Source: Corythucha ciliata (Eukaryota > Arthropoda > Insecta > Hemiptera > Tingidae). From it: a DNA stretch of 64,000 nt. The translations under genes were made by a program, and so were the position numbers. The DNA is taken from contig CM075941.1 of NCBI GenBank assembly GCA_038030265.1, positions 3,658,001 through 3,722,000 of the forward strand, written 5' to 3'. Positions 1 through 39,748 of the stretch are shown in pieces. Position 1 is the stretch's first letter. Each line of letters starts with the position of its first letter. A model generated the notes under the pieces. It searched no databases, was not told the origin of the DNA, and saw nothing but the letters and a program-made list of their open reading frames with translations.

Positions 1-1
1 T

Positions 2-1803
2 CTGAATTGGTTTAACGAACATGCTCCTTTCCCCAAAACCACCGACCTCAAGTCAATAAGTACGGGTGTTGTAGGTGATGAGAGGATCAACTGCCACTTG
101 TCCAAGGAAGTGGGGCTGAAAAGTCTTCAGGACTCCACTGGTGGCAATTTCCAACACATGAAATTGAAAAGAAGTGACAGAGTGCAGCCTCTTGCAATTA
201 TGAACTCAGCAATTCAGATTAAGGACAAGACTGTAGTTATCAGTCCCACTACACTTTTCCAACGGATAACCATTGTCAAGCACACCGATGAAGAGCTGCG
301 AGAATTTTTAAGCTATGAGCTTAGCCCCTGCCCGCTCTCTCTTTTCGATGAGCATGGGATAATGCGTAAAGCAACCAAATCAAGCATGTACAAGGCATTT
401 ACTCCAACTGAGCAGGACCTGACCAATCCAAAATTTGTCATTGATGGAGGATATTTACTTCACAGGGTTAAATGGAAGCTGAACCAGACGTATGCCGAAA
501 TTTGCAGAAGTTATGTGTCATACGTCAAAGCACACTATCCAGCTGCAACTGTTATCTTTGATGGTTACCCTGACGAAGGGTTTCAAGGCACCAAACAAGT
601 CGAAAGACAGAGAAGAGCACAACGAAAGCAGTCTGCTGCGATATCATTTACAGAAATCATGGTGCCCACTGTATCCCAGGAGAGTTTCCTGGCAAACTCA
701 CAGAATAAGAGGCGATTTATCCCCATGCTAATGGACAAATTCAATGAAGCTGAAATTTATTCGAGCCAAGCTGCAGAAGATGCTGATGTCCTCATTGTTA
801 GGACAGCACTTACAATGTCTGAAGCAAAGGAAAATGTAATGGTTGTGGGAGAAGACTTAGACCTTCTGGTATTGTTGATTGGCCTGTGCACCCCTGAAAA
901 GCAAAATGTGCGGTTCTTGAAACCGGGAAAAGGAAAGGTGACTCACACCCTATACAATCCACATGTTGCCATAAACAAAACCGTTTCGCCTCACATACTA
1001 TTTTTGTACGCGATGACTGGATGTGACACTACGTCGGCTTTGTTCAACCAGGGCAAGATGAAGTCCATAAAAATCCTGCAGAAAAATCCTGACTTACAGG
1101 AAGTTGTGCAGGTTTTCAAAGACCCTCAGGCAGACCCTCACGATATTTCAAAAGCCGGAAATATTTTTCTTATGGCTTTGTATAGTCCTCGAAAAGAGAC
1201 CAGCTTGAACGACCTCAGGTACAAGCTGTACATAACGTCGTCTTTCAAAACGTCGTCCAATCTAGCCACACTCCCACCAACTGAATCTGCTGCCCAACAA
1301 CACTACTTGCGAGTATACCTTCAGGTGCAGCAGTGGTTGTGTAAAGGGAGTCAGCAGAAAGATCCAACCAAGTGGGGATGGAGAAAGACAAGGAATGGTC
1401 TGGTCCCAATAACCACAACTGCCAACCCTGCGCCAGAATCCGTGCTAAATAACATCTCGTGCAAATGCAAAAAAGGTTGCCAGAACAGTTGTGGTTGTAG
1501 AAGGATCGGCCTCCACTGCTCACCACTCTGCACATCCTGTGGAGGGATGTGCCAAAATATTGAGTCCCGACGAAGAATTGAGACGAAGTAGAGGATGAAT
1601 TGACTGAAGAAGCTGAAGAAAACCTCATCGAAGGTATGTCTAGTTTTGAAAAGCTGCCATAATCCTCTATGTAGAAACTGTTATTTCCACCAAACTCATT
1701 CTCATTTTACCTACTCTTCTATTTTCCAGGAGACCTCGAATTTGACGAACCTCTCATCACTGATCCCCAACCAGGGCCATCAAAAAGACCCCGTTTACTG
1801 TAA
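2..1803 (+). CDS. PIN/FEN-like protein with C-terminal CXC cysteine module, 5' partial
   Basis: The frame is open from base 2, so the true start lies left of the window; the first in-frame ATG or TTG is not a meaningful start. Counting from the TTG at 98, there are acidic motifs of a PIN/FEN-nuclease-like fold: FVIDGG near residue 116, IFDGY near 155, AAEDAD near 227-230, VVGEDLDLL near 252-255 and TGCDTT near 310. The last ~40 residues are a tesmin/CXC-like cluster (C-x-C-x3-C-x3-C-x-C...GLHC...C..C). The main frame stops at 1589-1591, but an acidic tail continues in another frame to a donor at 1634 (GTATGT). An intron of 1634-1729 ends in CAG, and a last exon at 1730-1803 ends in a basic PSKRPR tail. 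One frame change near 1565-1590 is therefore needed. A degraded homologue sits inside the element at 15430-17592. Nuclease activity is inferred from the acidic pattern only. Confidence 0.7.
1634..1729 (+). other. Small intron of the PIN/CXC gene
   Basis: The donor is GTATGT directly after an acidic stretch. The acceptor follows a pyrimidine-rich run ending TTTTCCAG. Joining the two sides keeps a frame that ends at TAA 1801-1803. Confidence 0.6.
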
Positions 1804-1861
1804 TATCGCATTAAATTAATCCATGTTTGTATTAAGTATAGTAAAATATCGTTGTATATAT

Positions 1862-1867
1862 AATAAA
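1862..1867 (+). terminator. AATAAA polyadenylation signal
   Basis: AATAAA lies about 60 bases after the stop codon of the PIN/CXC gene, the usual place for a cleavage and polyadenylation signal. Confidence 0.5.
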
Positions 1868-2612
1868 AGTCCACATTTGTTTCACTAATACTTGTACTTT
1901 TTTTTACCTGATGATATGATGTCTTTTAATGTGTCTAATTTAATTTTACGTATCATAAATTGTATACATACATTTACAAATATGTATACTGATTTCAACA
2001 ATAATTCTTAACTCACAGAAAATTCATAATAAGTCATGTTGTCAAAAAGTAGATAGTTTCAGAGTAACCTACCAGGAGCCTCAATAAACATAATTTTCCT
2101 TGTTTCGGATTTTCTAAGATTGCAAGAGAACCATGGGGTCTACCGACTTCGTTTTGCGCTTGAATTAAAGTCAATAACATTTACTACAACTTTTCTTACG
2201 ATAACATCTCTCTAGGAGAGGGGGTTCCGCCGAAATTTGGCTCGGTAGATAGTCAAAACCCAAAAATTGCACTTTTTGCGAAAATCGGCCAAATTTTGAA
2301 GTGCTGTATCACGGGATCTATTGGACCTACAGAGCTCCGGTTGCACTCAAACTGTAGCAAATTTATTTGTCTTTAAATAACATAATAACGTTTTTTTACA
2401 AAAAGTTGATAGTTTTTGAGCTATACTCAAAAAATAAAAAACAATTAAAAATTTCTCAGTTTTTAGCATTTTTCTCCATTTTCCGTCACGAAATTTTGTT
2501 GGCAAACCTCAGATTCGGATTCAGCACCTCAAAATACATATAGAACCATAAAAATCATTTCTACCCCAAATCTTGTTTCTATTTCACTGTTTGGAACACC
2601 TAATGACTGGAC

Positions 2613-3315
2613 TATTAGTTCGGACGAGAAGTATTTTCTTGATTCCCAGTCAATTGCGGAATTTGCTTTATGCCACTGTGTACGACGCCATTCCCAATTA
2701 AGGTGAGTGGTTATTGTTGCTGCCAGTCTGTAACTAAGTTGTTTCATCCCTCAGTTTGGGATTCTACTCCTCGACTCATCGGGAATTTCCTTTCTTTATT
2801 CTGTAAATATTTTGCCCCATTTGCCAGTCCTCAAATACAGTCCTTTTTTCTTTCTATCCCAGTGATCCCCTTTCCATAAGGTATTAGCTGTGGATATTGT
2901 ACAGTTTGAGACACCGTGGCATTTTTTTTTTTCTTCTTCTTCTTCTTCTTCTCCCCTTAACTGAGTGCTCGTACTAGTGGCCATAATAATCGAGAAAAAC
3001 GGTTGATACGAGCGACCACGACGCGAAACTCATTTCAGGACCGTTTAAGGGCCAACTGCACTAGCGGCTACTCTGCTGCGTGTCAAGCCGGAACCGCCGG
3101 CCGTATGTCTCGGTTGAGCATGGTTTGGGGGACTCATAAATCACGTATGTCACAGACCATTACCTTGGTCTGTAACGGAACTTGGAGGGACCATGTCCCT
3201 TCCCTTAGACCCGCCACTGGTGTATAACTATAGGTTCTCTACTATTTGATCCGATTATGGAGGGGGGACCATACAATGGCGACTGTCAATACTTGTAGGA
3301 ACTTATCGAGTCTTA
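2613..3315. other. No gene seen; TTC microsatellite
   Basis: A (TTC)n tract lies at about 2930-2953. The open frames here are short and match nothing I recognise. Confidence 0.5.
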
Positions 3316-3526: not shown

Positions 3527-4623
3527 GGGGGCTTCCCGATACCGCGCGTGTCGTTAATCGACCTTTTTTTGCCAAATTTCGTCCCAATACCGCGCGTGTT
3601 TATGTTTATACCTCCACTTCCTTCAGTTTGGTTCCCACTACCGCGCGCCCTCAAGAAATCGTAGGTAGGTGCCAAACAAAACTGAGCAGTCATACTTTAG
3701 AATGCTTTCCCGCCTAAAAACTTGCGTTCCTGGTTTCAATCCGACGACGTTCAAAGTAGATTGCGAGATGGCTGTTATTAAATCAATAAACAAAGTGTTT
3801 CCTGACTGCTCCGTATCTCTTTGTTTTTTTCATTTTAATCAGTGTATTTGGAGAAACATACAAAAGAACGGTCTTTGTACTGAGTATAAAACAAGTGAAA
3901 CATTCCGGCGTCACGTGTGGAAATGTTCTTCTCTCGCTCTCATCCCCCCGGACTTGGTTGACCAAGGCTGGTTGTTGATTGCAGCTGAATGCCCTTCGGA
4001 AGAAAGTTTCGTCACATTCAATGATTATTTTGTTGATCAATGGATGGAAAATGACCGGAACTGGAATGTTTTTAATCAGCGTCATCGAACAACGAACATC
4101 GTGGAGTCATGGCATTCGCGCTTGAAGAAGAGACTACCGAAAATCAACCCCAACATCGCTGACCTCATTGATATCCTGAAAAAAGAAACGCTGCTCGTCG
4201 AACACGACCACGTCCTGCGTTCAAAGTTCATGCAGCCAACGAAAAAAAGGAAGACAAAGCGAGTGAACCTGGACCTCGATATCGACCGAATCGTGAAGAA
4301 ATGTGATGCCCAATCGCTGAAGGTGTGTTTAGATGCCCTTAGCGTCAGAGTGAAGTTGAACTGCTCAACCAATTAATGACCTGTTTCCGACTAGTCCCTT
4401 TTATATGACGTACCTACTTATACGAACGATTTAATAAAACGCTGCATATTGGATTACTCATGAATTTATTATTCCTCCGTCTCCTCCTCCCCCCGATGTT
4501 TCGTTCATTCCCCTCATCGCATCACAATCCACGCGGTAGTGGGACTGCTGCATGATACGCACGCGGTAGTGGGAGATTTGACCGCACGCGCGGTAATGGG
4601 ACGCGCGGTATCGGGCATTCCCC
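3527..4623 (+). mobile_element. MULE DNA transposon, internally deleted, perfect 9 bp TSD
   Basis: The element begins GGGGGCTTCCCGATACCGCG and ends with the inverted CGCGGTATCGGGCATTCCCC. It is flanked by identical GTTTTAAAG at 3518-3526 and 4624-4632, the 8-10 bp class of duplication made by Mutator-like elements. Both ends carry repeated CCCAnTACCGCGCG motifs in inverted orientation (three on the left, four on the right), probably transposase binding sites. The perfect duplication suggests a fairly recent insertion. Confidence 0.88.
3669..4376 (+). pseudogene. MULE transposase, C-terminal part
   Basis: 235 codons resemble the second half of a MULE transposase. Visible landmarks are NKTEQSY, the KVDCEMA aspartate near residue 30, the LCFFHFNQCIW segment with its conserved His, and the TTNIVESWH segment typical of the region after the catalytic domain. 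The N-terminal zinc finger and first catalytic Asp are absent. The coding starts abruptly ~140 bp inside the element, so this is an internal-deletion copy needing a transposase supplied elsewhere. Confidence 0.82.
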
Positions 4624-5270: not shown

Positions 5271-5272
5271 TA

Positions 5273-5537
5273 AAGTACGCGACACGAAATAAGGCGGGTG
5301 TGACTCATCGGCCCTCCCATGCCCTGTTGCCACTCCATGCGTTGTGGCTGGTGATGTAGGGTGGGGTTTTACGAACGCTCACCGGCTCACAGCTCTCCAA
5401 AGTGACAACGATGGGAGCGCAACGTTGCCAGCTATGGGTGTAGCCTTGAGCTTTTCAACGCATCTTTGGGACTATAATGCGCAACGTTGGTTTTTTAGTC
5501 GATGAGTCACACCCGCCTTATTTCGTGTCGCGTACTT
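5273..5537. mobile_element. MITE with ~38 bp perfect inverted repeats, TSD TA
   Basis: AAGTACGCGACACGAAATAA and the following bases through GACTCATCG are repeated in perfect inverted form at 5500-5537. TA flanks both sides, which suggests a Tc1/mariner-type non-autonomous element. No coding sequence. Confidence 0.8.
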
Positions 5538-5539
5538 TA

Positions 5540-6888: not shown

Positions 6889-7045
6889 CGATCTTTTGAC
6901 TTTCATTTAGTGGTTCGATCTTCTCCAATTTATCGATGCAAGAAATGAGAGCCACTCCACCGCCGGGAACGATTCCCTCTTCCACGGCGGCTTTTGTCGC
7001 GTGTAGAGCATCTTCGACGCGATCTTTCCTCTCGCTCACTTCAAC
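6889..7045 (-). CDS. Hsp60: Hsp60 exon (equatorial domain, GGG motif)
   Basis: Encodes [20 protein letters not shown] and continues with [10 protein letters not shown], the strongly conserved ATP-pocket segment of GroEL/Hsp60. Splice sites are TTAG|G and G|GTAAGG. The exon starts in phase 0 and leaves one base for the next exon at 6480. Confidence 0.93.
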
Positions 7046-7145
7046 CTAATTTGTGAGGGTGGTGTGGGAGGGAGAAGGGTGAAACCAGCCAACCAGCAAA
7101 CGAATAATTGTCAATGGGACGAGCCAGTAAGTGCAATTTTCAAAC

Positions 7146-7301
7146 CTCAGATCCACCACCGACTTGAACAACCGCCACTTTGGACAACAGGCGAGCCAGT
7201 CGTTCTTTCAGTTTGGCCTTTTCAAAATTGTCGGGGGCCTCTTGAATCAAACCTCGAATGAATTTCGCCCTGTCGGCGATCTCATTCTTTGAACCGTTAC
7301 C
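7146..7301 (-). CDS. Hsp60: Hsp60 exon (KLKERLARL segment)
   Basis: 52 codons, phase 0 at both ends. Encodes a RAKFIRGLIQEA stretch, then KLKERLARLLSKVAVVQVGG, matching the conserved NERLAKL...AVLKVGG region. One extra Leu lies in RLLSKV compared with the usual RLSxxV. Confidence 0.93.
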
Positions 7302-7708
7302 CTAAAATTTAAATTGGGTTATCTTTTGTATAGATAAATGTGCTAACATTAGCATTGAGTGTATGTCGTTCAATTGAAACAAGCTTTTTCTTTAAAAAGA
7401 AGGTCTGAATAATAGAAACTACTGAGCAAGAATAGTCAAGCATCGTTCTAGACGTTTTGAGTCATAAACAAATGCCTGCGTGCTGGGTTTCTATCTCACG
7501 TACAGCATCGTTGCTATATTTTATCTAGAAAGGTTAAACGCCTTCAAGTACTTTTAAAGGGAACATCTCTCTCTCTCTTTCTCTCTCTCTTTTTTTATAT
7601 TTTATACGCTAAACTATTAATGAACTTTGCTTGAAAAGTGAAAGAAAAGAAAAAGTAGAAGAAGGAAAAGAAGAAGAAGAAGAAGAAGAGAGGAGTGCGT
7701 TTTATTAC
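7302..7708 (-). other. Hsp60 intron with simple repeats
   Basis: Contains a (TC)n tract near 7566-7590 and a GAA-rich stretch near 7630-7690. Nothing else recognised. Confidence 0.6.
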
Positions 7709-11780: not shown

Positions 11781-12079
11781 AAATTTGCCGCAAAAAATGG
11801 TTGAGCCGAGCGTCAGAGGTAAACCGCAGATTAAATTTCCATTTCAAATCCTGATTTCTCTCGACGCTCGGTTCAGCCTTTCTTGTGGCCCGTTTGAGAC
11901 CCTAAAAAAAAAAATTTGAGTTACCGTGAAAGTGAGTGTTCTGAAATTCTGTTATTGGTCAAAAAAGATTAAAATTGGAAATGGGATGAACGTAAATTTT
12001 AGTTCACATGCGAAGAAGTCGTGAAAGAAGAAACACGAAATATATTCAAACATAGTATAAAACAATAAGTAGAAAATTC

Positions 12080-12300
12080 ACCACCGTCATTTCAATTCAC
12101 CGTCATTGAATTCTGCTTTACCGTCACTTCGCTCGGTTTTACCGTCATTCAACTCGACTTCACCGTCATTGAATTCTGCTTTACCGTCACTTCGCTCGGT
12201 TTTACCGTCATTCATCTCGGTAACACGACCGCTCAACTCGGCTTTACCGTCATTCAACTCGGTAACATGGTCGCTCAATTCGGTTTCACCGTCATTCAAT
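12080..12300. repeat. 21 bp minisatellite, first block
   Basis: Units close to TTTACCGTCATTCAACTCGG repeat in tandem with substitutions. The 21 bp period keeps frames open on both strands; minus reads as heptads like NDGKTEL, plus as FNSVLPS-like heptads. Confidence 0.8.
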
Positions 12301-12309
12301 CTCGTTCAA

Positions 12310-12990
12310 TGGAAGCTCAGCTTCCACTCTTGCAAAAGAGTTTTAACATCTTCATCCATTTCGGAGTCACAAGTTCTTGTTTCAACACGACTCAAATCAC
12401 TTCACGAAAAAAAAAAAAAAAACTCTTTCACTGACTACAGTGACTGAAACAACTTCAGCAGGCGAGGACTAAATAATGAGAAGTGCGAAGTTACTGGGAG
12501 CAGTGAGGAAGACAGACCTTGCGCGTTTTCTGCAAATGCCGCTAAAAACAAAGAGAAGGAGTGCTTCAACCGATAGAGCACCCTGAATCAACAGAATTTT
12601 GACGGTTAAAGGTTGCCTTACTGAACCGTCTACTTAGTTGTTGCATCTAGTTACGAGTGCGTGAAGTCGGTTAAAAACTGCTTGTCTAAGACTGCCAGAA
12701 CAGGAGAGTTTTATAGGATGATGAAATGGGGGAGGGGACCTCTTGGGTAATGTTATATCTATATGTATCTGAATGCTTTCATTAAATAAAAATAAATACT
12801 AGGCTACCGATGGGAGCATTGAGTTTGATTCGATTTACATTTTGTGTGTGTGTTCTTCATCGAAAAATATCCCGCTTTCTTTGATTGTGACCTGGGACCC
12901 AGGGCAATTTGCGAAAGTTGCAAGATCCGGAAGTTTTAGAAAATGAAAATTTCGTTTCATCGGTTTTATCGTACATTTGATATTAGTGGC
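12310..12990. other. Spacer between the two minisatellite blocks
   Basis: Contains an A-run near 12405 and unique-looking sequence with sparse CGGTTAA motifs (for example near 12600 and 12670). No coding sequence recognised. Confidence 0.4.
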
Positions 12991-12999
12991 CATGGAGCC

Positions 13000-13660
13000 G
13001 GGTTCACCGTCATTCAACTCTGCTTTACAGTTACTAAACTCGGTAACGCCGTCATTAAACTCTGTTACATCGCCATATTCAACTCGATTTCACCATCATT
13101 GAATTCTGCTTTACCGTCACTACGCTCGGTTTTACCGTCATTCATCTCGGTAACATGACCGTTCAACTCGGCTTTACCATCAATCAACTCGGTGACATGG
13201 TCGCTCAACTCGGTTTCTCCATCATTCCAACTTGATTTCACCGTCATTCAACTCGGTTTTACCGTCGTCCAACTCTATTTCACCTTCATTCAGGTCGGTA
13301 ACGCCGTCATTAAACTCTGTTACATCGCCATATTCAACTCGATTTCACCGTCATTGAATTCTGCTTTACCGTCACTTCGCTCGGTTTTACCGTCATTCAA
13401 CTCGGTTTCTCCATCATTCCAACTTGATTTCACCGTCATTCAACGCGGTTTTACCGTCATTCAACTCGGTTTTACCGTCTTCCAACTCTTTTTTACCTTC
13501 ATTCAGGTCGGTAATACGGTCGTTCAACTCGGTTTTACCGTCATTCAGCTCGATTTCACCGTCATTGAATTCTGTTTTACCGTCATTCAACTCGGTTTTA
13601 CCGTTATTAAACTCAGTTACACGGTCATTCACCTCGGTTTTACCGTTATTCACACCGGCT
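13000..13660. repeat. 21 bp minisatellite, second block
   Basis: The same ACCGTCATTCAACTCGGT unit as at 12080-12300, about 30 copies, with a duplicated sub-block (13030-13170 and 13290-13400 are closely similar). Frames stay open for 170 codons on plus (13192-13704) and 79 on minus (13414-13653). Confidence 0.8.
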
Positions 13661-13913
13661 GGGCGACAAGTTTTCAGCTCAACCGACTTTGTTTGTACGG
13701 TTAAGCACCTGAAAGTGTAGAAAAGTCTGTTAAATACACGGTAAAAGAGTCTTTTTGACGGTTGTTTGCACTCTTAACCGAACAAATAACTGTTGGAGCC
13801 GTCTTTAACAGAATGACGTTTTTTTTTCACGGTTAAGTTTAACGGTTGAAACTACTGTTTCAACCGAGAATACTGTTTCAACCGAGTTCCGGAACCGACT
13901 CTTTTTCCCAGTG

Positions 13914-14460: not shown

Positions 14461-15429
14461 ATGCGGAAGCCATTTCGTGAAGTTGCCAGCGAAAGGAAAA
14501 TAAAATAAAGGGCGTGCTCAATCCGCTTTGGACCGACGGAAAGGTTGAATGATTTTATTTTAATAATTAAAAAAAAAACGAAATAAACTTATTGAAAAAT
14601 AGTTAGGTGTAAAAAAAAAATATTTAATAAAAAGCAGAACAGCAAGAACAAAGAAGCGCAAGAATCAAAGCTGGAAAGCTGAGCAGTTAGCGCCTATCTC
14701 AATCCAAATCCTCTGTGCTCGAACGTTCGCTTCGAAGTCACTGAACACGTTACAACCAGGGCTGCCAGATGCAGCTTTTTCAATTCTGCCACCAGATCGT
14801 GTGAATTCTGCTACTTCTACTCGAATTCTGCTACCATTGGTTATCTTAAGGCTCCTCCTCACAGCCCCGCCACAGCTCAAAAAAGACCTAGTGTTGAGCA
14901 AAAATTACTGTATTCTTATGAACTTAGGTAGTTTTAATCGGGCGCTTCAGTTGGACAATTGCGTCACGTTACAATTATGGAGGCCAAACAAAAGGGAACC
15001 TCTTTTTTAAAGAAAGTTGTTTACTTCCATGTCCCCCCCCCCCATTCTCGTTCAGTTTAGACTCAACTAAAAATCACGGTAATCACGTCAATCTTCGTAC
15101 TGTTAGTAGTTTTGGACTTTCGTTGTTGCTAGAGGGTCTGTTGTTGGGGAAATCGAAAGTGGAATCATTTTTTTCTCGTTCATTGCGTTGGGGACATATT
15201 TCAAACTCATTCTTTTGAAACTTGATTTCCCTGGTAACATCATCTTACTACATGAAAGTACAAAACAGAACGAAGGTCGACTTGAACACCCTAAATTTCC
15301 TTCTTATTTAATTTCAGTGAATAAATAACGAATAATTATGCTAAATTATCAGTTTTGTGCCCATTAACCAAGTGAACTAACACCGAGATCAGCAACAGCA
15401 TAGTAATTGAAATTAGACGGAACTTATTA

Positions 15430-17592
15430 GGCCAGTCAATAAGAACATTAAAAATAGCTAAAATCGCAATTAAATGGCTAGTTCTGATTTTTTAGTATGT
15501 TGTTAGGACCATCACCAGTAGTGTAAATTCAAGTTTTCAGCTTCGAAACACTTGTGCTACTTTTGTGGCACTCGAAAAGCCGCGAAATATTTGCACTTTT
15601 TTCGGGTTTTTCACTTTATCTCCTAAAACATGCATTTTAAGATAAATCATACGAAATACGTTAAAAATTACATAAAATTTGCTACAATTTGAGACCTAAC
15701 GTAGCTCTGTAGGTCATATAGTAACCAAGATACAGCTCCTCGAATTTGGATTTATTTGTCCAAAAAATTGAAATTTGATTTTTAGGTCAACTTTCGACCC
15801 GAATTTAGGCTAATATACTCATCCTACGGGGAAATCCGAGTCGAGAGAAGTTGTAGCAAATCTGATTATGTTCCATTTAAGCACACAACGATGTCTGCAG
15901 ACCAAATAGTTTCATCAAAATCCTTGAAAAAACAAAAAGTGAGGAAACTACATTTTTATAAGAATGAATCTGTTGAGTTTCCACCTAAGTTTGGGTGGGT
16001 CCCAGAGCACACGAGCGATACGTGTAGCATTGCTACGCTTATTTCTGCTCTATAAACTCTATGAAATGCACAGCTCCACGCTCCACTGGTTGCTATTGTT
16101 TTTTCATGGTCTTGGTTACATGATCGTGGTGTCCGGGCGAAACTTTATCGCTCGTGTGCACGGAGCATAAGGCTGAATGAAAATACCACGTGAAATTGAA
16201 AGAATTGTGCAATTTCAGCGCAAAGAAACAGCTCAAAGCCTAGAGCGACATTCGAATCTTCACGATTGAAGGAGTTTGCCGAAAACTGCATGGTACCTTC
16301 GTCACCTCTGCCACTTTTCTGGAAGAAAACATTCTTCACGGCTGAGCCCAAATCATTGAGAAGGACGAGTAGGTCTACATCCTCTCGGTTTTCTCCACAG
16401 ATTCGTGTGAGGAGCTCTTGTCAGTGGCCACCTTGATTATTTCAAAGTCTGCATCCTCGACTACCTCCTTCGTTTCAATCCCCTGGCTATTGAATGCGGA
16501 GCGCAGGAGGGCAATAAGACGACATTATTGTTGCCGTCACTGGCCAGCAACTTCTCTTGTGCCATTTTTATTATGATCGACTCCCCAAACACCACATTCC
16601 CCTCAAGTTGTTTCTTTTCCCTGTCTACGTACGCTTATAGTGAGAATAAGAAACTTACATCGGAAGAACCCTAAGCAGCCGATGATGGACCGGTAGAGCG
16701 GGAGGGAAGGGAACATGTCCCAATCCCGTTGTTATGCGGACGGCCCCTATGAGTCTTCAAGTAGTTTTATGCTCCAAGTTGGGGCCCAATTTTTCGCTCT
16801 CACGGTCACAAATACCTGGCCCTTTGTTTACTATCGCTTCTCCTTGACGTAGGTGCACACCCGAGGTTGCACGGACTTTTTTTTTTTTAGCACATTTTTC
16901 AATTTCTAGCGAGGCCAACACACCCGAGTTTAGTCCACGACAACTAGCCTTTTTTTGCAATTGGCATTTCTACCCCAAGTGGGACTGACGAAGGGGTACC
17001 ACTGACTAAATTTCGAGCTTGATGTAACTTAAGGGCCTTCAAACCATGGTGGGAGCTTAACAGATTCATTTTTAGAAAAATGCAGTTTCCACTCTTTCTG
17101 GTTTTTTATGGATTTTGATTAAGCTATTTGGTCTTCAGACATCGCTCTGTGCTTAAATGGAACATAATTAAACTTTCTACAACTTCTCTCGACTCGGCTT
17201 TTCTAGTAGGATCAGTATTTTAGCCAAAATTCGGGTCGAAAGTTGACCAAAAGTAAAAATTTAAATTTTTTTGACAAATAAATCCAAATTCGTGGAGCTG
17301 TATCTTGGTTACTATATTACCTACAGAGCTACGGTAGGTCTCAAATTGGAGCAAATTGTATGAGGTTTTTAACGTATTTCGTATATTTTACCTTAAAATG
17401 CATATTTTAAGAGATAAAGTGAAAACCCCGAAAAAATGCAAAAATTTCGCGGTTTTTCGAGTGCCACGAAAGTAGCACAAGTCTTTCGAAGCTGAAAACT
17501 TAGATTTACACTAATGGTGATGGTCCTAACAACATACAAAAAAATCAGAACTAGCCGTTTAATTGCGATTTTATTGTTCTTGTTGACTGGCC
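15430..17592 (-). mobile_element. Long-inverted-repeat element, copy B (PIN family)
   Basis: Terminal inverted repeats of ~550 bp (15430-~15985 and ~17046-17592), estimated by eye at ~85-90% identical, begin GGCCAGTCAAYAAGAAC. TA flanks both ends (15428-15429, 17593-17594). The ~1.06 kb centre holds a degraded minus-strand copy of the PIN-like core seen at 2-1803. The repeat interior also matches the sequence downstream of that gene. No DDE-type transposase is visible. Confidence 0.8.
16261..16620 (-). pseudogene. Degraded PIN-like core, homologue of the gene at 2-1803
   Basis: Across three frames the minus strand reads FGESIIIKMAQEKLLAS (16589-16540), LIALLRSAFNSQGIE, VVEDADFEIIKVATDK (EDAD at ~16458-16447) and, after a shift, REDVDLLVLLNDLGS with VKNVFFQKSGRG. 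Aligned blocks in the left-edge gene are FTEIMVPTVSQESFLAN, FIPMLMDKFN, AAEDADVLIVRTA and GEDLDLLVLLIGL with VRFLKPGKGK. Order and spacing agree. The N-terminal part and CXC tail are missing. Confidence 0.7.
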
Positions 17593-17639
17593 TATATCAC
17601 GATGGGAACGAAATGAAAAGTAAACCAAACATTTTTATT

Positions 17640-38538: not shown

Positions 38539-39748
38539 CTGAAAAAAAAAATGTTAAGAGGTTGTTGTGCGGGGGGGGGGGGAAGGTGAACGAGAAAAAA
38601 CGACCTATTAACCTCATTCGATTTATGAATATTTCAAAACTATAAAATTGCCGAAAATTGGATTTTTAAAAGCGAATTGGTGATTTTCCTCAATTTAGCC
38701 GCGAAGTAGCCCCCAATTTTGGCCATGAATTGAAGATTTCCTAGATTTTTGCAGCAATTTTCAGCAGCAGTGCGAATTAGCAATTTTTCGCTAAAAGTAT
38801 ATCGTTTTCCGTTAATTTCAGCCGTGCTAATTAGTGACTTTTCACGCCGGCCGAAAATGAGCGGTGTTCGAACTATTTGTGCCCGGCATTAACAGTTTTT
38901 TAAAAACTTTTAGCTATGGACTAACGCTAATTCTCAGGTTTAGCCCCTAAGTTGCTTTCAGAAGCTTCGAATTTGAGTTCTTCAAAATTTAAGCCGCGAG
39001 TCAGCGTTATTACTAAATTTTAGTCGTGAATTAGCGATTTTCTCAATTTTAGCCACGACTTGGCGTTTTCCTCAATTTAGCCGCGAAGTAGCCCCCAATT
39101 TTGGCCATGAATTGAAGATTTCCTAGATTTTTGCAGCAATTTTCAGCAGCAGTGCGAATTAGCAATTTTTCGCTAAAAGTATATCGTTTTCCGTTAATTT
39201 CAGCCGTGCTAATTAGTGACTTTTCACGCCGGCCGAAAATGAGCGGTGTTCGAACTATTTGTGCCCGGCATTAACAGTTTTTTAAAAACTTTTAGCTATG
39301 GACTAACGCTAATTCTCAGGTTTAGCCCCTAAGTTGCTTTCAGAAGCTTCGAATTTGAGTTCTTCAAAATTTAAGCCGCGAGTCAGCGTTATTACTAAAT
39401 TTTAGTCGTGAATTAGCGATTTTCTCAATTTTAGCCACGACTTGGCGTTTTCCTCAATTTAGCCGCGAAGTAGCCCCCAATTTTGGCCATGAATTGAAGA
39501 TTTCCTAGATTTTTGCAGCAATTTTCAGCAGCAGTGCGAATTAGCAATTTTTCGCTAAAAGTATATCGTTTTCCGTTAATTTCAGCCGTGCTAATTAGTG
39601 ACTTTTCACGCCGGCCGAAAATGAGCGGTGTTCGAACTATTTGTGCCCGGCATTAACAGTTTTTTAAAAACTTTTAGCTATGGACTAACGCTAATTCTCA
39701 GGTTTAGCCCCTAAGTTGCTTTCAGAAGCTTCGAATTTGAGTTCACAC

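Follow-up and report, generated by a model that had tools for sequence, protein, structure and literature searches.

The Academ superfamily is counted, in a passage of PMC9587614, among those with a DDD/E transposase. Its lineages, for which PMC10045372 cites Kojima 2020, are distinguished in a passage of that paper by their target duplications, of 3 or 4 bp in AcademX and 9 or 10 bp in AcademH, a difference that seems tied to the helicase and the nuclease they encode, the latter called there only a 'nuclease'. Here we analyse 64,000 nt of Corythucha ciliata (contig CM075941.1; C5:3658001-3722000 of the 401-Mb genome; hereafter the window), whose left edge holds the right-hand part of an Academ-type transposon (1..2614, + strand), recognised by its inverted-repeat pair, its ends, its target duplication and near-identical copies. 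We estimate a probability of roughly 85% that this segment represents the right portion of an AcademX-like DNA transposon in which one polypeptide carries both a DDE domain and a nuclease, the nuclease being part of the transposition machinery. The nuclease of AcademX is of the XPG type, and a literature search combining Academ, XPG and transposase returned no papers. Academ also receives a mention in passages of PMC10799480, PMC9004415 and PMC8290104, but none in PMC12730594.

Ends, target duplications and copies of the left-edge element

A first-pass annotation of the window had proposed that an inverted repeat matching the one at the left edge would lie before the gene. In the window's left edge joined to 5 kb fetched upstream (locus L009, in which 5001 is window base 1), this left repeat is present at 513-1019; its partner is 7028-7584, to which it aligns in two pieces at 97% identity. 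Junction reading gave the exact ends, TAGTCCAGTCATTA...TAATGACTGGACTA, of a 7,122-bp element (C5:3653493-3660614, L009 493-7614), of which 4,508 bp lie outside the window to its left. The right terminal inverted repeat (2028..2614, +), which also has matches elsewhere in the genome, ends in ...TGACTGGACTA and is followed by the right copy of a 3-bp target duplication, TTA (2615..2617, +), whose left copy is at L009 490-492.

We read target duplications in 24 complete copies with both flanks, 17 from the window family and 7 from other families. In 18 of them the trinucleotide preceding TAG equalled the one following CTA, a 4-bp repeat fitted three (L018, L022 and L071/072), and three had no exact 3- or 4-bp repeat: L012 and L019 (each with one mismatch in three) and L075/076 (two). 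No exact flank repeat exceeded 4 bp in any of the 24, and two copies, L057/058 and L067/068, have identical flanks and are probably one insertion that was duplicated. As a control, comparing each left flank with another copy's right flank gave 9 matches in 552 at 3 bp and 1 in 552 at 4 bp. Because the 3-bp flank matches lie outside TAG/CTA, the terminal TA comprises the element's own last two bases and is not the flank or duplication for which it had initially been taken. The duplications vary (they include TTA, TAA, ACT, GAT, AAA and AGT), and a Tc1/mariner-type TA target duplication is ruled out by these varied 3-bp, sometimes 4-bp, repeats beyond the terminal TA. The end motif TAG(G/T)(C/A)CAGT(C/A)A is common to all families read and to a second element in the window, described below.

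A six-frame search of the genome with the window open reading frame (ORF) gave at least 88 matches, from 99% (self excluded) down to 39% identity, a lower bound in that 82 of 962 candidates were scored. At the DNA level the right repeat had 41 matches, of which 36 were strong and 5 weak, from the scoring of 40 out of 644 candidates. The strong repeat matches resolve into 17 left-right pairs and one single end, one end being split over two rows, and comparison of coordinates showed that all pairs but one, C1:54236136-54243970, have a protein match between their ends (16 of 17). The suggested link between this protein family and one type of terminus thus holds genome-wide, although the two window elements from which it was drawn belong to separate families. 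Loci L011-L015 are ~98-99% identical to the window element over long pieces, and the whole 1,486-aa frame is open in one of the seven loci L009-L015 (L013); more distant families also have copies with one long open frame, namely L019 (1,521 aa) and L020, L021 and L022 (1,547 aa each). Full-length copies with the ORF therefore exist as the first-pass annotation had anticipated, although without the TA duplications it expected. Judged from sequence, the near-identical copies together with the long open frames indicate recent activity. Two of these families show internal repetition as well: in L010 the segment 2107-3400 recurs from 3411 as a tandem repeat of the 5′ coding block, this copy's ends being 10.5 kb apart, and in the ~900-bp repeats of the L020-L022 family similar segments lie ~170 bp apart (L020 1541-1966), which may be subterminal binding sites.

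The predicted transposase-nuclease polypeptide

The window holds the 3′ half of the ORF (2..1591, +; 529 aa, open to the left), and the reading frame of this copy is interrupted both upstream, in the L009 sequence, and close to its 3′ end. Structure prediction places a FEN1/EXO1/XPG-like nuclease domain at model residues 125-455 (374..1366, +), in agreement with the PIN/FEN-like acidic motifs noted initially. Specifically, the ORF contains the motifs IDGG, IFDGY, EDADVLIV, GEDLDLLVLL and TGCDTTS with their key residues conserved, and its acidic residues are D148, D187, D260, D262, D285, D287 and D342. Six of the nuclease acidic residues are identical in all of 26 chosen full-length relatives, and in a second set of relatives five of the seven are identical in 53 of 53; those full-length relatives carry the nuclease and the DDE domain as an in-frame fusion. 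The domain thus shares the fold and the metal-binding acidic active-site pattern of the FEN/XPG superfamily, and may have the structure-specific nuclease activity of that superfamily. It differs from FEN1, EXO1 and XPG in its low identity (~12%), in being transposon-borne and fused to a DDE transposase, and in a DxD where FEN1 has ExE; a sequence search of the PDB with the window ORF had Exonuclease 1 as its best match, at E 0.19. The cysteine tail reported alongside these motifs is likewise real: nine cysteines form a CXC-like tail (residues 487-517; 1460..1552, +), for which homologue P0090 gave a weak, below-cut-off match to preSET_CXC. From sequence and translation we predict an intron, GTATGT...CAG (1634..1729, +), after which a last exon (1730-1803) would close with the basic tail ...PSKRPRLL.

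The first-pass annotation saw no conventional DDE transposase, whereas the N-terminal half of this same protein has a DDE-type domain, which in the window copy lies ~80-1,500 bp to the left of the window. VIA-align ranked DDE transposases first for the N-terminal model, in which invariant D, D and E residues occupy RNase-H-like positions. The predicted order in the ~1,486-aa protein is Cys/His motifs, winged helix, DDE domain with helical insertion, nuclease, CXC-like tail and basic tail; the conserved N-terminal Cys/His motifs are probable zinc binders, and the basic C-terminal tail is probably present. An RNase-H-like DDE fold with helical insertion, predicted here, is shared with the P element, hAT Hermes and Transib-RAG1, whose target duplications are 8, 8 and 5 bp, respectively, and which are not known to have a nuclease domain of such a kind.

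Pfam matches of the transposon proteins (including P0194, P0144 and P0140) were all below cut-off wherever a cut-off was given. The most recurrent near-match in the transposase half was DUF6589 (seen in 5 of the 26 members, with a lowest E of 0.0038), and the best DUF6589 match seen was that of P0194 (E 5.1e-5, 22.6 bits, below the cut-off of 27); a literature search for DUF6589 returned no papers. P0194, whose source is named as the rust fungus Austropuccinia psidii MF-1, aligns to 76% of the transposase with 43% identity, which could reflect horizontal transfer or contamination. Transposase relatives from Frankliniella fusca (P0070, P0199, P0202 and P0204) bear labels including KIF4 kinesin, glucans biosynthesis protein D and tRNA ligases, which are probably misannotations. 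A literature search for tesmin/CXC with transposon and transposase gave nothing relevant among the entries listed.

A second element and other repeats in the window

The 2.2-kb element with ~550-bp inverted repeats placed by the first-pass annotation at 15430-17592 is real, with exact ends at 15428 and 17594. It is non-autonomous, belongs to a second Academ-type family and has the termini TAGGCCAGTC...GACTGGCCTA (15428..17594, unstranded); its repeats are 87-92% complementary, and it is flanked by TAT (15425..15427, +; right copy 17595-17597). The degraded PIN-like core that had been recognised at its centre corresponds to a nuclease-coding remnant (16262..16521, −), matched in tblastn by only P0138 of ten query proteins (16521-16262, E 1.3e-4), and window 16224-16591 is 92% identical over 369 bp, in reverse orientation, to the nuclease-coding part of L079; tblastn revealed no intact transposon gene within the element. 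L079 (C3:48270400-48274600), whose own element is flanked by TTA on both sides, has repeats 88-92% identical to those of the second element and encodes a protein segment sharing 44% identity with residues 837-1470 of L013. Because L079 shares the repeats, the coding match and a homologous protein, the second element is, on these comparisons, an internally deleted relative within this second family. We considered whether the two window elements are copies of one family and rejected this: they have the terminal motif TAG(G/T)CCAGTCA in common, but otherwise only short patches of their repeats (best 76 bp at 78%).

The genome search proposed for the second element's repeat gave 40 scored matches, with identities of 91-100%, from 1,189 first-look candidates, so that the family is abundant. 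The far end was sought for 14 of 20 located copies: one independent extra copy, L026, has a clean 3-bp duplication, L028 and L035 have partial ends only and no flank match, and nine have no end in the fetched piece. L024 and L025 carry the flank of the window copy, so that the window insertion is probably nested in a larger repeat.

Elsewhere in the window, a MULE-type transposase fragment (3669-4376, +; PF10551, E 1.1e-6, above cut-off) lies ~1 kb right of the left-edge element, and a perfect 40-bp inverted repeat (5271-5310 / 5500-5539, 189 bp between arms) is possibly a short hairpin element. Tandem repeats comprise two blocks of degenerate 21-bp units like CGGTTTTACCGTCATTCAACT (12049-13694) and a 382-bp unit in 2.8 copies with 100% matches (38684-39744).

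Probable placement in Academ and proposed role of the nuclease

The left-edge element shares with AcademX, as described in the PMC10045372 passage, a DDE-type transposase together with a nuclease and target duplications of 3-4 bp, and no difference from it emerged in these features. AcademH, reported there within the same superfamily, is distinguished by a helicase and 9-10 bp duplications, against 3-4 bp here; membership in it is not supported, as no duplication exceeds 4 bp and none of the 23 Pfam families to which the 26 members had matches at E <= 1 is a helicase. Given the nuclease, the short duplications and the DDE-type transposase, with no helicase match, we class the element as AcademX-like, with a confidence that is high though short of complete, placing it by the description in that passage. 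The left-edge element is thus probably a new addition to the known group Academ and not a new kind, and the initial proposal of an undescribed transposon family is to that extent probably wrong, although individual families may be uncatalogued.

Several observations weigh against an AcademX-like element whose nuclease serves transposition, and they bear on different alternatives. The likeness to Academ is one of description, and the most recurrent Pfam near-match of the transposase half, DUF6589, is a family of unknown function, as might suit a separate DDE superfamily in which a DDE domain and a FEN-like nuclease were combined independently; we consider this improbable, as duplication length and nuclease both fit the AcademX description (PMC10045372), and among the homologues is a 243-member protein cluster from Mytilus, Academ being amplified in bivalves according to a passage of PMC10294476. 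Foldseek alone gives the N-terminal model no transposase score, which would suit a nuclease that itself mobilises the element with the N-terminal half as a DNA-binding scaffold only, an idea raised by the first-pass annotation to which we attach very little weight in view of the VIA-align ranking, the invariant D, D and E, and a 3-4 bp duplication that fits DDE strand transfer.

A further alternative concerns the role of the nuclease. One Academ lineage is reported to have a helicase instead (PMC10045372), so the nuclease is not universal, and the element at 15428-17594, with only a nuclease-gene remnant, has moved, perhaps in trans. The nuclease might accordingly be a captured passenger or accessory, dispensable for cutting and joining and acting, for example, in interplay with host repair or in raising copy number through gap repair that uses the long repeats on either side. 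We regard this as rather unlikely, because the two domains are fused in frame and the residues of both, DDE and nuclease, are conserved, which argues, from sequence, against a passenger role.

For the AcademX-like transposon we envisage cut-and-paste movement, in which the DDE domain would cut the 3′ ends and join them at a 3-bp stagger, the N-terminal Cys/His motifs, winged helix and CXC-like tail would bind the element ends, and the nuclease would cleave or trim the non-transferred strand at 5′ flaps, donor overhangs or hairpin ends. More specifically, and only tentatively, we speculate that two nucleases work within one polypeptide, a P/hAT/RAG-like DDE domain transferring 3′ ends and a FEN/EXO1-like nuclease making or trimming the 5′-strand cut, as a eukaryotic counterpart of TnsA/TnsB, the Tn7 pair that a passage of PMC3627910 cites along with a RecQ helicase in Academ.

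Labels given to relatives in public records, among them Tesmin/TSO1-like CXC and asteroid protein, hide that these are transposons. The predicted fold match to the P element and RAG1 gives this transposase, which has no above-cut-off Pfam model, a placement that can be tested, and the families with intact or near-identical copies are good material for testing the role of the nuclease in transposition.
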